A stretch of DNA of 64,000 nucleotides from Geothrix fuzhouensis (GTDB lineage: Bacteria > Acidobacteriota > Holophagae > Holophagales > Holophagaceae), in NCBI RefSeq assembly GCF_024609325.1, contig NZ_JANHMQ010000002.1:434001-498000 (forward strand), in the 5' to 3' direction. The notes under the pieces are model-generated. The model had not been told where the DNA came from, did not search any database, and saw nothing but the letters and a program-made list of their open reading frames with translations. Positions 23,638-28,889 of this stretch are shown in pieces. The translations under genes were made by a program, and so were the position numbers. Positions within the stretch are counted from its first letter, which is position 1; each line of letters starts with the position of its first letter.

Positions 23638-24780
23638 TTAGTAGCCGTACGGGCCGCCGCCAGTCCCGCCGCCCGTTCCGGTGGCGCCGTAGCTGATGGT
23701 GGCGAAGAGGCCGTGGGTCTGACCCTGCGGACCCGCCGCGACGTAGAGCTGGGTGGACTTCCCCGCCGAGGCGTCATTGCCGAAGGCCATCCCCCAGAGA
23801 CCGCTGACGGAAATGGGCGTGCCCGCCGGTCCCTTGAGCTGTCCCATCAGGGCCCCGGTGGCGGCGTTGTAGGCGGTGATGCGCCCATCCCCGAAGTTGC
23901 CCACCAGCAGCGCGCCTCCGAAGGGACCGAAGCCTGCCGGAGCCAGGGCGAGGCCCCAGGGCGCGTTGAGGGAGCCGCCCGTGGCGAGGCGCTGGACGAA
24001 GGTGCCGTCGAGGTTGAAGACGCTCACGATGCCAAGTCCGGTGCCAGTGGTCTCCCGCGGGTTCCCGGCGCTGTACTGGGCGTAGGTCACGTAGAGCTTT
24101 CCAGCCAGCACCTGGACGTTGTACGGCGAGTAGCCGGCCGGGAGAGCCGGATCCACCAGGGCGCCCGTCCCAAGGGTCACGGGGGCATAGGCGGCGTCGA
24201 ACACGTCGACGGTTCCCCCGGCCAGGTTGGCGGCGTAGAGGTAGGTCGCGCTGGCCGAGATGCCCTGGGCCAGCCCGGTGTAGATGGCGCCCGAGGCGGA
24301 GTGGTCCACCCTGCGGGTGACCGTGGTCCCGGTGCTCCACCCGGAGATGCATCCGTCCAGGGAGGCCATGATGAAGCGGTCCCCCATGAAGCCGGAGCTG
24401 GCGTTGAACACCATGCCCGTGGGGCCGCCCACGGTGCGGCCCGCCACGATGGGATCGGATACCACAAGGGGGGTCGCCAGCATCTGGCCGAGCCCGTCAT
24501 ACACCGTGGCGGTGGCCGTGCCCTGGTTGGCCAACCAGAACCGCGTGGTCGGACCGTAGGCCAGGCCCCAGGGGTTCACCAGGTTGGCGTCGGTGGTGGT
24601 GGCGGCAGCCGTGGCCTGGTCCGCCACGAGGCTGGTGATCTGGTAGGTGGGCGGAGGTGGGGGCGGGGTGCTGGTGCCGCCACCACCCCCCCCGCCGCAG
24701 GCCGCCAAGCCAAGCAGGGCCGCGCCGAGGAGGCCGGTCGAGAGGGAACGCAACGTGGGACTGGCAAAGTGCAGGGGCAT
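23638..24780 (-). CDS. TIGR03118 family lipoprotein with NHL/beta-propeller fold
   Basis: A 380-residue secreted protein. It opens with a signal peptide ending in the lipobox LAAC, then poly-Gly and a poly-Pro linker (residues 28-45), and continues with the TIGR03118 pattern: LVNPWGLAYGP, FWLANQGTATATVYDG, NVQVLAGKLYVTYAQ and NAPWGLALAPAGFG. These spaced glycine/tryptophan-rich units suggest a six-bladed NHL-like beta-propeller. The function of the family is unknown; members are abundant in Acidobacteriota and Proteobacteria. GGAGG six bases before the ATG supports the start. Confidence 0.88.
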   Translation of the reverse strand: MPLHFASPTLRSLSTGLLGAALLGLAACGGGGGGGTSTPPPPPPTYQITSLVADQATAAATTTDANLVNPWGLAYGPTTRFWLANQGTATATVYDGLGQMLATPLVVSDPIVAGRTVGGPTGMVFNASSGFMGDRFIMASLDGCISGWSTGTTVTRRVDHSASGAIYTGLAQGISASATYLYAANLAGGTVDVFDAAYAPVTLGTGALVDPALPAGYSPYNVQVLAGKLYVTYAQYSAGNPRETTGTGLGIVSVFNLDGTFVQRLATGGSLNAPWGLALAPAGFGPFGGALLVGNFGDGRITAYNAATGALMGQLKGPAGTPISVSGLWGMAFGNDASAGKSTQLYVAAGPQGQTHGLFATISYGATGTGGGTGGGPYGY

Positions 24781-24953: not shown

Positions 24954-26012
24954 ATGAGACCGCTCTGCTGGATCCTCCCCCTGGTGGCCCTGGTCCTCGC
25001 GGCCCAGGAGTCCAGTCCCTTCGCCCCGGAGGCTACCAACCTTTGGGCGCCCGCCTGGGAACTGACACTCCGGGGGGACCAGCTTTCGGCTCCGGGGGCC
25101 CCGGACGAGGCCTTCCACCGCATGGACGCGCAGCTGCGCCTCCGCTGGACCTGGGAGTCCGGCCCGCTACGCGTCGAGGCCGGCACGCGCTCCGCCGTGG
25201 GCTCCGACGGCAACCGCTTCAACGCGGCCCGCTGGGACCAGCAGCCTTCCAACGGGACCCAGGCGGATGTGGCGCGGGGGATCGCGTCGTGGGTCTCTGA
25301 GCGGGCCTTCGGCTCCCTGAGCCTGGGGCTCCAGGGCAGCGGCCTCCTGGCCCCCCAGGCGCTGTGGGATCCGGACCTCCGCTTCCTGGGCGTCGGCGGG
25401 CGGTTCGGGCTGCGGGGCGCCGGGGGCATGCTCGAGGAGGCGGGTATTCGCGTGGCGGCCGGCCGGGTCCGCGACCTCCTGGGCGGACGCGTGGACCTCG
25501 CCGCGGGACAGCTGGTGCTTCGGGTCGACACCGGGCCCTGGTCCTGGACGGCCCATGCCGGGCGCTGGGATCTGGCCTGGGATCCCGGCGGCGAGCGGCT
25601 TCGCCAGTTGCCGGGCCACGATCCGACGGCCCGCCAGCGGCTGGTGGTGGACGCGGCCGGGGCCTCGGGCACCTGGCACGCGATCCTGCCCGTGGAAGCC
25701 GGGTGGTCCGGCGCCAGGAACCGCGAGACCGGCGAGACGTCGGAGGAGGTCCAGGTCGCCGTGGGCAGCCGCGAGCGGGTCTTCTGGCCCCAGCTCGCCC
25801 TCACCTGGCAGCGACTGTCCTCCACGGGCACCCTCTACCCGGTGAACGGGGACGAATGGTGGTACTACCGGCGGGCGCGTGGGCCCCGCGCCGACCTGTC
25901 CCTGCCGCTGCCCCATCACTGGATCGCCACGCTGGTGGTCCTCCGGCAGCGGACGGACGGCGCAGAGGAAACGGTCACCCGGACGATGCTGGTGGTGCAG
26001 AAGCGGTTCTGA
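24954..26012 (+). CDS. Probable outer-membrane beta-barrel protein of unknown family
   Basis: A 352-residue protein started at the ATG at 24954, four bases after CGGAGG; the open frame further upstream has no supporting features. A signal peptide (MRPLCWILPLVALVLAAQ) is followed by a chain of short amphipathic beta-strands rich in alternating Trp, Arg, Leu and Gly. The protein ends in VVQKRF; a terminal phenylalanine is the usual outer-membrane barrel assembly signal. I do not recognise a named family. It is immediately convergent with a cupredoxin-like gene, and the next gene is a membrane kinase, suggesting a functional set. Confidence 0.7.
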   Translation: MRPLCWILPLVALVLAAQESSPFAPEATNLWAPAWELTLRGDQLSAPGAPDEAFHRMDAQLRLRWTWESGPLRVEAGTRSAVGSDGNRFNAARWDQQPSNGTQADVARGIASWVSERAFGSLSLGLQGSGLLAPQALWDPDLRFLGVGGRFGLRGAGGMLEEAGIRVAAGRVRDLLGGRVDLAAGQLVLRVDTGPWSWTAHAGRWDLAWDPGGERLRQLPGHDPTARQRLVVDAAGASGTWHAILPVEAGWSGARNRETGETSEEVQVAVGSRERVFWPQLALTWQRLSSTGTLYPVNGDEWWYYRRARGPRADLSLPLPHHWIATLVVLRQRTDGAEETVTRTMLVVQKRF

Positions 26013-26699
26013 TCAGTAGGCCCGGTCGTCCGCCAGGGGCGGGTAGTCCTGTCCGAACTTGTTCTTGTGGGGCTCCAGGGCGGGCAGGGACAGGTCCAGG
26101 TCCCAGCTGCCGTGGGTGACCTCGGCGCCGATCCGCACGGTCCAGGCCTTCTCGCCGGATTCCGGGTGCCAGAGGCGCAGCCGGTAGGTACCCGGCGGGA
26201 CCCGATCGAAGGCCACCCCGGCGCGGCCGTCCAGCACCTGGGCGAAGGGCGTCGTCACCACCCAGAGGAAGGCGTTCATCTGATGGTGGACATTGCAGTA
26301 GAGCTTCACGAGGCCCGGCCGGGCCACCGTCACCTTCGGCGCGTCTCCGGGCTGGTACTGGCCCGTGTCGAAGCGGTTGCCCTGGGTGACGCTGAACACG
26401 TTGTGCAGGATGTGGTCGAGGTTGGGGAAGGCCACCTTGGTGCCGGGCGTGGCCAGGGAGACTCGGGGACGGAACTGCTTGCCCAGGGTGCGGATGGTCA
26501 CGGGCTTCGAGGGTCCGGGCGGCGGCACCGGCGCGTCGATGGGTTCCAGGATGGCCACACAGTCCTTCAGGGAGGCGCGGATCCGGCCGTCCTTCTCGTG
26601 CAGCCGCACGGGGCCTTCGAGACCGCCCGCCAGCAGGGGGACGGCCAGGGCCAGGGCCAAGGCCAAGGTCGGCAGGCCGTTCACGGGGACTCGAATCAT
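26013..26699 (-). CDS. Periplasmic cupredoxin-like protein
   Basis: About 228 residues from the ATG at 26699 (an ATG three codons upstream at 26708 is also possible). A signal peptide (LPTLALALALAVPLLAGG) leads a cupredoxin-type domain. Candidate type-1 copper ligands are a histidine in NLDHILHNVFS and the Cys, His and Met of LYCNVHHQMNAF, in the order expected for a plastocyanin-like site. The last part (GVAFDRVPPGTYRLRLWHPE) resembles a carboxypeptidase-regulatory-like beta-sandwich. Proteins of this kind are often annotated as methylamine utilization proteins. Its stop directly abuts that of the barrel gene, and its start is 54 bases from the divergent kinase gene. Confidence 0.75.
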   Translation of the reverse strand: MIRVPVNGLPTLALALALAVPLLAGGLEGPVRLHEKDGRIRASLKDCVAILEPIDAPVPPPGPSKPVTIRTLGKQFRPRVSLATPGTKVAFPNLDHILHNVFSVTQGNRFDTGQYQPGDAPKVTVARPGLVKLYCNVHHQMNAFLWVVTTPFAQVLDGRAGVAFDRVPPGTYRLRLWHPESGEKAWTVRIGAEVTHGSWDLDLSLPALEPHKNKFGQDYPPLADDRAY

Positions 26700-26753
26700 G
26701 CTGGGCATCCGGGGTAGATTCGAGCCAGTATAGCCACCGACCAAGGAAGGCCG

Positions 26754-28889
26754 ATGCCGCAGCCCATGAGCTGGTACCGAACGCTGGCGTGGACCTTCTT
26801 CCTCCGGCAGGCGGCGGCCATCGCCGCCCTCATCGCGCTCATCCTCTGGGTGGCCTACAGCGAGGCGGAGCGTGGCGCGCGGACCACGGCCGCCGCGAGC
26901 CTCTCCGCCGGACGGTACGTCGTGGAACGCGCCTTCGAACAGCAGGGGCGGTCGCTGGATGCGGGCCTGGAGGTCTTCACCGAATATTCGGGCAACGTCG
27001 CCCTAGTGGAGCAGGCGCTGGAATCGGGCGCCTCTGCGAGCCTGGCGGACACGTTGGCGGACAACCTGCCGCGCCTTGGGGCCGACCTCGCCCTGGTGGT
27101 GAAGCCGGACGGCAACCTGCTGGCCACCACCGGCCCCGGCGGGCGCACGGATTTTCCGGAGGCGGGGATCCTGCAGATGGCCCTGGCGCCCGAGGACGCC
27201 GAGGCGGCCGGTCATCCCGGGCCGTCCTACCGGGGCTTCCTTCGCGTGGACTGGGGGAATCGTCCCGGGGTCTACCATGCGGTGGCCCGACCCCTGCGAT
27301 CCCCCGGCGGCCGCGCGCTCGGGGCCATGCTCGTGGGTGTGCGGGTGGATGACCGGATCGCCCTGGACCTGCGCCGCATGGCCGTGGCCGGGCCCCAGCG
27401 GGGCGATCCCGCGCCCCACCTGGTCCTGCTCAGCCGCTTCCAGACCCTGGGTGCCACCCTCCAGGGGTCCGAAGAGCTTGATCGCCTCCTGGCCCGGGAC
27501 CCGTCCCTCCTGGCGGTGCGGGGCCGGGTCCTCGATGGCCAGGGCTCCGGCGTGCTGCGCTTCCGGGTGGGCGGGCTGAATTACCTGGGCCTGGTCTCCC
27601 CCATCCGGGGCGTGAATGCCCTCGATCTGGAGATGGCCGACGTCCTGCTGATGCCCGTGGATCCCTTGCTGGCACCGTTCCGCAATCTCCAGCGGGCCAT
27701 CCTCGCCGCCGGGGCCGTGGGGCTGCTCGTGACCCTGGGCCTCAGCCTGCGCTCGGCCCGGAAGGTGACGGCCCCGCTCAAGGAGCTCGCCACAGCCACA
27801 GAGGCCCTGGCGGCCGGGGAGCATCCCGGACCCCTGGCCCTGGTGCCCAGCCAGGACGAGGTGGGCGTGCTGACGCGGACCTTCAAATCGATGGTGGCGG
27901 AGCTGAAGGCCAAAGATGAACTCCTGGCCCTGCTGGCCGCGACTCAGCGTCCTTCCGCGCCTTCCCCGCCGGCCCGCGACGGCGAGGCCACCTTGCACCT
28001 GGTGCCATCGGCAGCCATGCCGGCGGGCGAACCACTCCCCGGCCCGCTTCGGATCGGGGGGACCTTCGCCGGCCGCTACCGGGTGGAACGGCTGCTGGGC
28101 CGGGGCGGGATGGGTGTGGTCCTACAGGTGCGCGACCTGCAGCTCGAGGAGGAGGTGGCCCTGAAGGTGGTCCGGCCAGCTTTGGCCTCGGTGCCCGCCT
28201 TCCTGGATCGCCTCAAACAGGAGATCCGTCTGGCCCGGCGGATCACCCACCGCTACGTGCTCCGCATCCATGATTTCGGCGAGAGCGATGGCATTCCCTT
28301 CGTGACGATGGAATACCTGCGCGGCACCACCCTCCGGGAGCTGCTGGACGGGCGGGGACGCCTCCCGCTGCCGCTCGTGCTGCGCATCGTCCGCCAGGTC
28401 TCGGAGGGCCTGGAAGCGGCCCACCTCGTGGGCGTGGTCCACCGGGACATCAAGCCGGCGAACGTGCTGTTCGACACCCGGGGCGACGCCAAGATCATGG
28501 ATTTCGGTCTCGCCGCGCCGGCCGCGGGTGCCGCGCCGGGGGACGCCGAAAACCTCATCGGGTCGCCGCGATACATGTCCCCCGAACAGATCCGCGGCGA
28601 ACGGGTGGATGCCCGGGCCGATCTCTACGCGCTGGGGATCATGCTCTTCGAGCTGTGTTCGGGAAGCCCGCCCTTCGAGAGCACCCGCATCGAGGAACTG
28701 CTGGCCCTGCACCTGGACGCGGCGCCGCCAGCCCTGGCCGAGGCCGTGCCGGACCTTCCTCCGGACCTGGGCCTCCTGGTGGCCCGGCTCATGGCGAAGC
28801 GTCCCGAGGATCGGCCCCAGTCCGCCGCCGAGGTGGTGGAGATCCTGAAGGCGCTAGCCTCCAGCGGTGGCGCCACCTCCCGGTTGTGA
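26754..28889 (+). CDS. Transmembrane sensor Ser/Thr protein kinase (Cache-like, HAMP, kinase)
   Basis: A 711-residue protein with an unusual order for a bacterial Ser/Thr kinase. A first membrane span (about residues 15-36) is followed by a periplasmic domain of about 275 residues, probably Cache-type, a second span near 314-334 and a HAMP domain (about 335-390, with PLKELATATEALAAGE). The kinase domain begins at about 441: glycine loop LGRGGMGVV, lysine in VALKVV, catalytic HRDIKPAN near 562-569, DFG near 582 and the activation-end SPRYMSPEQ. All key residues are present, so it should be active. The sensor half is that of a chemoreceptor or histidine kinase. Confidence 0.92.
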   Translation: MPQPMSWYRTLAWTFFLRQAAAIAALIALILWVAYSEAERGARTTAAASLSAGRYVVERAFEQQGRSLDAGLEVFTEYSGNVALVEQALESGASASLADTLADNLPRLGADLALVVKPDGNLLATTGPGGRTDFPEAGILQMALAPEDAEAAGHPGPSYRGFLRVDWGNRPGVYHAVARPLRSPGGRALGAMLVGVRVDDRIALDLRRMAVAGPQRGDPAPHLVLLSRFQTLGATLQGSEELDRLLARDPSLLAVRGRVLDGQGSGVLRFRVGGLNYLGLVSPIRGVNALDLEMADVLLMPVDPLLAPFRNLQRAILAAGAVGLLVTLGLSLRSARKVTAPLKELATATEALAAGEHPGPLALVPSQDEVGVLTRTFKSMVAELKAKDELLALLAATQRPSAPSPPARDGEATLHLVPSAAMPAGEPLPGPLRIGGTFAGRYRVERLLGRGGMGVVLQVRDLQLEEEVALKVVRPALASVPAFLDRLKQEIRLARRITHRYVLRIHDFGESDGIPFVTMEYLRGTTLRELLDGRGRLPLPLVLRIVRQVSEGLEAAHLVGVVHRDIKPANVLFDTRGDAKIMDFGLAAPAAGAAPGDAENLIGSPRYMSPEQIRGERVDARADLYALGIMLFELCSGSPPFESTRIEELLALHLDAAPPALAEAVPDLPPDLGLLVARLMAKRPEDRPQSAAEVVEILKALASSGGATSRL

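Follow-up and report, generated by a model that had tools for sequence, protein, structure and literature searches.

Outside the cytoplasm, copper and redox state are known to be sensed mostly by histidine kinases that bind metal directly and by disulfide switches. In YfiBNR of Pseudomonas, a periplasmic protein controls an inner-membrane receptor enzyme, and the system has an outer-membrane part too, like the barrel of the locus described here. In LuxP-LuxQ, a membrane receptor that carries a Cache-type domain is controlled by a periplasmic partner, as we propose for this locus; in contrast to this locus, the partner LuxP is of the sugar-binding type and a histidine kinase provides the output. 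The HmsC-HmsD system of Yersinia pestis is similar in that a periplasmic redox-responsive protein controls an inner-membrane receptor enzyme, and HmsC acts through disulfides (PMC8846402).

We analysed a 64,000-nt stretch of DNA from Geothrix fuzhouensis (the window; contig NZ_JANHMQ010000002.1, positions 434,001 to 498,000). Three adjoining genes, all of them genuine, encode an outer-membrane barrel (24954-26012, plus strand), a cupredoxin (26013-26699, minus strand) and a receptor kinase (26754-28889, plus strand). For the cupredoxin, an alternative upstream TTG start at 26744 was also open. The preliminary description had placed 0 bases between barrel and cupredoxin and 54 bases between cupredoxin and kinase, and these coordinates and gaps were correct; it was silent on strands, and the three genes are not co-directional. 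The barrel gene converges on the cupredoxin gene tail to tail, and the cupredoxin gene diverges from the kinase gene head to head across a 54-bp intergenic region (26700-26753). Because the strands differ, the genes do not form an operon in the window.

The receptor (711 aa) was characterized with Pfam and a custom HMM. Pfam gave no direct match in its periplasmic part; Pfam dCache_3 was found in its relatives, and an HMM built from dCache_3-positive homologues, with the window protein excluded, matched residues 11-287, which comprise TM1 and the periplasmic dCache_3-like region (26784-27614; domain E 1.4e-19). A search of PDB sequences with the N-terminal part returned no meaningful match. 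The HAMP domain (residues 335-385; 27756-27908; PF00672, E 2e-10) follows TM2, and the Cache region, assigned by homology, lies in the periplasm between the two TM helices; thus, both features expected of such a sensor were present. The Ser/Thr kinase domain spans residues 442-693 (28077-28832; PF00069, E 5.7e-47). Its Hanks-type motifs are intact (the VAIK Lys K471, the HRD Asp D565 and the DFG Asp D583), and the catalytic residues K471, E490, D565, N570 and D583 were 100% conserved in 50 HAMP-linked kinases. These results supported the earlier claim that a periplasmic sensor and HAMP domain are joined to an intact Ser/Thr kinase, with the sensor N-terminal and the kinase C-terminal, unlike the PknB type. 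A PknB/Stk1 PASTA kinase was ruled out, as the kinase domain is C-terminal and the NCBIfam PknB_PASTA score (280) was below the cut-off of 450. Of 19 kinase loci examined in this genome, this one alone encodes a HAMP-bearing kinase. The order of sensor and then kinase is not unique to it, since about 50 such kinases were collected. Table 1 of a survey of Cache domains gives one Ser/Thr kinase among 883 dCache_3 proteins (2012 UniProt set; PMC4822843). A Ser/Thr kinase behind a Cache-HAMP sensor is rare, yet already known. A second Cache-HAMP-kinase, at locus L156, had no cupredoxin nearby.

Sequence, alignments and a structure model gave the cupredoxin a signal peptide, a type-1 copper domain, a CarboxypepD_reg-like second domain and a conserved tail. 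Its four type-1 copper ligands showed no variation in an alignment of 94 cupredoxins: H91, the His of HNVFS (26403-26405), and C127, H130 and M133, which lie in the loop CNVHHQM (26277-26297). The ligand spacing, H...C-x2-H-x2-M, is of the amicyanin type. The AF2 model (pLDDT 92) matched plastocyanin and amicyanin with Z of 12-13 at 1.3-2.0 Å and met the criterion of a Greek-key cupredoxin fold. Fold and ligand set together mark the protein as a predicted type-1 (blue) copper protein, its copper binding being inferred. The secreted cupredoxin-like protein with plausible copper ligands that had been proposed was thus upheld, and a predicted structure without a plausible metal site, which would have refuted the proposal, was not what we obtained: the site is complete and invariant and the model is confident. 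The neighbours checked around the cupredoxin gene encode a GntR-type regulator, a TIGR03118 protein, the porin, the kinase, a hydrolase and TrmO. No methylamine dehydrogenase genes are among them, and the amicyanin of methylamine utilisation (MauC) was therefore rejected as an identity.

The barrel protein (352 aa) has a signal peptide and ends in Phe, as the preliminary description had noted in calling it a probable outer-membrane barrel. Its AF2 model (pLDDT 84.6) showed 16 antiparallel strands behind the signal helix. A barrel profile found no match among PDB sequences; structure comparison did match porins (OmpM1, OmpF and OprB). A closed barrel of 16-18 strands, a signal peptide and a terminal aromatic residue, the marks of an outer-membrane porin, were all present, and the protein is a porin as far as the model predicts, with channel activity inferred. 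An HMM built from barrels of the genus only detected homologues adjoining cupredoxin-receptor pairs elsewhere (E 1e-7 to 1e-17; next hit 0.027), and such homologues adjoin the pair in 15 loci. Among the best 80 of 459 relatives, 47 of the 80 loci carried a barrel gene from one of four families. Could the porin be the principal partner, taking up for example phosphate or another anion, so that what the unit detects is a porin substrate that has nothing to do with copper? Distant barrel homologues occur in G038 and G040, the barrel families vary by lineage, and the barrel is not restricted to the unit, as shown by a homologue at L153 whose next gene resembles one for a phosphate-binding protein on sequence inspection. 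However, no feature of the unit is more conserved than the invariant copper site, and one barrel family takes the place of another, consistent with a supporting role. We consider a porin-centred unit very improbable.

Within the genus, all three genes occurred together in the same 25 of 37 genomes and were missing from the same 12, and the arrangement was kept in about 23 genomes. The gene set underwent at least 4 to 5 gain or loss events on an rpoB tree covering 19 of the 37 genomes; joint absence may reflect loss of one block by deletion. In G002 and G033, the barrel was retained though it lies about 0.5 Mb from the other genes. The proposal, which would have fallen had the genes not been neighbours in related genomes, withstood this check, and a conserved three-gene unit is well supported despite the differing strands.

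The linkage extends well beyond the genus. Of 66 loci scored, 58, from about ten phyla, had the cupredoxin gene upstream of a Cache-HAMP receptor gene at a distance of 3-113 nt. Beside the cupredoxin genes of the 80 best-matching loci, the outputs were Ser/Thr kinase (40), histidine kinase (14), HD-GYP (9) and class III cyclase (6), and nine gamma-proteobacterial cupredoxins adjoin a gene with HAMP and/or dCache_3-GGDEF-EAL. Judged from sequence, cupredoxin and dCache_3/HAMP make up an unvarying input module, and the output enzyme is swapped among five kinds. This agreed with the initial guess that the locus is a cupredoxin and Cache/HAMP-GGDEF set with its output swapped, and ruled out GGDEF as the sole alternative output. 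In Lysobacterales, an FHA-domain gene lies behind the barrel gene (L095 and L108; Pfam for L095), the kind of gene one would expect to act after a Ser/Thr kinase.

The C-terminal tail of the cupredoxin, HKNKFGQDYPPLADDRAY (26016-26069, minus strand), is a candidate contact site for the receptor. Its H, N, K, G, Y and Y were invariant in 11 diverse sequences, and the motif was present in 40/40 kinase-linked and 6/6 cyclase-linked cupredoxins of the same 80 loci. It was missing from the inspected paralogues away from receptors, and from the HD-GYP group, 6 of the 14 histidine-kinase loci and the gamma-proteobacterial GGDEF-EAL set; because of these latter absences, it cannot be a universal contact site.

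That the cupredoxin is a plain respiratory electron-transfer protein, beside a receptor incidentally or through a shared niche, appeared improbable to us. Plastocyanin and amicyanin folds are those of electron carriers, unlinked paralogues are encoded close to multihaem, ferredoxin or oxidase genes (L063, L067 and L070), and several superfamily members without receptor linkage resemble simple electron carriers. Against this, receptor linkage recurs across phyla, the tail occurs on receptor-linked forms, and cupredoxin and Cache domain divergence were correlated (rho 0.70, 52 loci), a correlation confounded by shared descent.

The linkage could also reflect shared regulation rather than contact. 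The Cache domain itself might sense a small molecule or metal, with the cupredoxin as an effector or target of the pathway that carries electrons or buffers copper. No extracellular small-molecule sensors are more common than Cache domains (PMC4822843), the head-to-head layout in the window is compatible with a cupredoxin gene under its own control, and SAR324 relatives have a tailed cupredoxin with no receptor recognised adjacent, one of them (L094) beside a di-haem peroxidase gene. In most loci, however, the cupredoxin gene precedes the receptor gene and is nearly coupled to it, and the pairing persists with cyclase, GGDEF-EAL and HD-GYP outputs, which do not act directly on transcription. 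We regard direct Cache sensing as unlikely, though it is the most serious of the alternatives.

We favour, with some confidence and without experiment, a cupredoxin-gated transmembrane receptor that signals across the cell envelope, with copper or redox state setting kinase activity. The periplasmic cupredoxin would be the dedicated partner of the receptor and would contact its Cache domain, probably via the conserved tail, in a manner that varies with copper loading or the Cu(I)/Cu(II) state. The second TM helix and HAMP would relay this change to the cytoplasmic kinase. The porin would most likely let copper or a redox-active compound, whichever solute is relevant, enter the periplasm, or would be a third sensing part. 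Metal or redox sensing by the unit is an inference, as are the physical contact, the signal and its direction, the porin cargo and the kinase targets; domains, ligands, kinase motifs, linkage, co-presence, co-absence and output swapping can be read from the genomes directly.

The conserved set, with its fixed input and swapped output, suggests undescribed copper or redox sensing outside the cytoplasm. The wider proposal is that a blue-copper protein is the signal-carrying ligand of a receptor family, in which cupredoxin and dCache_3-HAMP, usually with a barrel, serve as a general readout; the evidence leaves this evenly poised. If this is true, the cupredoxin would belong to a widespread sensing module in which five kinds of output enzyme share it as an exchangeable input. 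Bacterial Ser/Thr kinases, for most of which the signal is not known, would gain an input that can be tested, and secreted 'methylamine utilization protein' annotations beside signalling genes could be accounted for. No prior description of the unit was found in open-licence full text, which is weak evidence; a paper on expressed cupredoxins (PMC12016527) treats a different kind of cluster. The parts consulted of the Cache survey (PMC4822843) make no mention of a cupredoxin partner for dCache_3-HAMP receptors.

Compared with described systems, the unit combines familiar parts differently. HmsC-HmsD, set beside it by analogy, differs in its disulfide mechanism, its GGDEF-only output and its lack of a copper protein. 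Amicyanin and plastocyanin share the fold and four copper ligands, and amicyanin a similar C-x2-H-x2-M loop; the window cupredoxin has in addition the CarboxypepD_reg-like domain and the tail, and sits next to a receptor, not next to genes for methylamine dehydrogenase or a photosystem. PknB/Stk1-type receptor kinases have a kinase domain from the same superfamily, whereas here it stands C-terminal to dCache-HAMP, without PASTA. The dCache_3-HAMP receptors with histidine kinase, GGDEF or MCP output have an identical input architecture, on which a Ser/Thr kinase output is very rare.

The barrel gene (24954-26012, + strand), the cupredoxin gene (26013 to 26699 or 26744, - strand) and the receptor kinase gene (26754-28889, + strand) were adjacent. 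The preliminary description gave the intergenic distances correctly, at 0 and 54 bases; however, it left out orientation: barrel and cupredoxin converge, and cupredoxin and kinase diverge. Pfam matched HAMP and Pkinase in the kinase but nothing in the barrel and cupredoxin proteins. The barrel is also adjoined by a TIGR03118-family protein gene (23641-24780, - strand; E 2e-98), whose linkage was traced in close relatives only.

The expected conservation of the neighbourhood was met in the genus, where the arrangement (barrel converging on cupredoxin, receptor diverging from it) was kept at 60-97% identity. All three genes were strongly matched in the same 25 of 37 genomes, own genome included, and none was matched in the other 12. 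An rpoB tree covering 19 of the 37 required five present/absent changes, four forced by well-supported branches, indicating that the presence pattern is not one clade. Since the genes are neighbours, their joint loss through a single deletion is possible; however, in two genomes (G002 and G033) the barrel lies ~0.5 Mb away, yet is retained.

Scanning 84,980 species, each represented by a single genome, yielded 459 relatives, of which the best 80 were read. They spanned Acidobacteriota, Gemmatimonadota, Pseudomonadota, Myxococcota, Planctomycetota, Verrucomicrobiota, Bdellovibrionota, Fidelibacterota, Eiseniibacteriota, Actinomycetota, KSB1 and SAR324; many came from MAGs, and individual phylum assignments may therefore be mistaken. 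Of the 66 loci scored, 58 had receptor homology starting 3-113 nt past the stop codon of the cupredoxin gene and on its strand. The receptor outputs in the best 80 were Ser/Thr kinase (40), histidine kinase (14), HD-GYP (9), cyclase (6) and unresolved or cut (11), and the cupredoxin tree required six output changes. Two of the 40 kinase receptors showed class III cyclase similarity between HAMP and kinase, with Pfam support in L100 (6608-9268), a single protein with HAMP, class III cyclase (3.4e-11) and Ser/Thr kinase in that order. Relatives of ~900 aa had a similar unassigned segment between HAMP and kinase, and one receptor gene (L132:5904-8606) lay in two frames, from a frameshift or assembly error. 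The suggested relation to cupredoxin and Cache/HAMP-GGDEF sets was supported by nine cupredoxin-adjacent HAMP and/or dCache_3-GGDEF-EAL receptors (one gamma-proteobacterial order and Dokdonella); of the 23 cupredoxins matched there, 19 had a recognisable copper motif.

The AF2 model of the cupredoxin, built on 94 relatives, was confident (mean pLDDT 92). Its residues 38-141 resembled plastocyanin, amicyanin and cupredoxin domains of copper oxidases or nitrite reductases (Z 12-13, rmsd 1.3-2.0 A), and at the sequence level its profile detected amicyanin, plastocyanin and pseudoazurin. The metal ligands H91, C127, H130 and M133 were invariant in 94/94 cupredoxins, with the C-x2-H-x2-M spacing of amicyanin. 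The type-1 copper ligand set proposed earlier is thus upheld, copper binding itself being inferred. The cupredoxin has a second domain, which in relatives is CarboxypepD_reg-like; L056 (7069-8574) and L057 (7068-8471) each encode a tandem pair of cupredoxin-like domains beside a kinase receptor.

The conserved C-terminal tail motif (HxNKxGxxY...Y), invariant across 11 diverse cupredoxins, occurred among the 80 loci in 40/40 kinase-linked, 6/6 cyclase-linked, 8/14 histidine-kinase-linked and 0/9 HD-GYP-linked cupredoxins, and was absent from the unlinked paralogues inspected. SAR324 cupredoxins carry the tail; at L093, L094 and L135 no receptor was recognised alongside, and in L094 the next gene encodes a di-haem CCP_MauG protein.

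Receptor residues 11-287 were matched by an HMM of dCache_3-positive relatives made without the window sequence (E 1.4e-19, one-sequence search). The kinase is intact: K471, E490, D565, N570 and D583 were identical across 50 HAMP-linked kinases. Among 19 kinase loci checked in the source genome, only this one had HAMP. In G008, a second Cache-HAMP-Ser/Thr kinase (L156:6382-8772; sensor part 36% identical) had no cupredoxin within the 14-kb stretch.

The barrel, described earlier as a probable outer-membrane protein, was modelled as a signal helix and 16 strands (AF2 pLDDT 84.6) and matched porins. In other loci, a profile made from genus barrels only hit 13 proteins (E 1e-7 to 1e-17), the following match being at 0.027; after iteration the family was present in 15 of the 80 loci (Lysobacterales, Acidobacteriota). 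Three more families, inferred from sequence to be barrels, occurred in 32 other loci, giving 47/80 together; apart from C and D, the families were mostly unrelated by profile. The window family was also found apart from the unit, indicating a porin family in wider use. Distant homologues lie at L153 (6678-7748) and L154 (6299-7408); the former precedes a phosphate-binding-protein-like gene and transporter genes and is possibly an anion porin.

The mechanism that we consider likeliest, with moderate confidence, is that a particular copper or redox state of the cupredoxin would allow it to contact the Cache domain and thereby set the activity of the output enzyme. The analysis establishes the domains, the metal ligands, the intact kinase, the gene linkage and the swapping of outputs; copper binding, this contact, the sign of the response, the porin cargo and the kinase targets are inferred. 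Cupredoxin divergence correlated with that of Cache (rho 0.70) and of the barrel (0.81); being confounded by common descent, these correlations carry little weight alone. An FHA-domain gene lies 3' of the barrel in Lysobacterales (L095:10533-11552, L108:9664-11328; Pfam applied to L095 only), and its product is plausibly a reader of the kinase output.

Cache-linked Ser/Thr kinases are known but rare, with one among 883 dCache_3 proteins in a 2012 set (PMC4822843). A 2022 census of c-di-GMP inputs mentions neither copper nor cupredoxins (PMC8846402), and we found no publication on the cupredoxin-receptor pair in the openly licensed literature. A receptor with a periplasmic partner is of a known kind: periplasmic HmsC controls HmsD via disulfides (PMC8846402), and we propose an analogous role for the cupredoxin, whose proposed use as the input protein would be the novelty.
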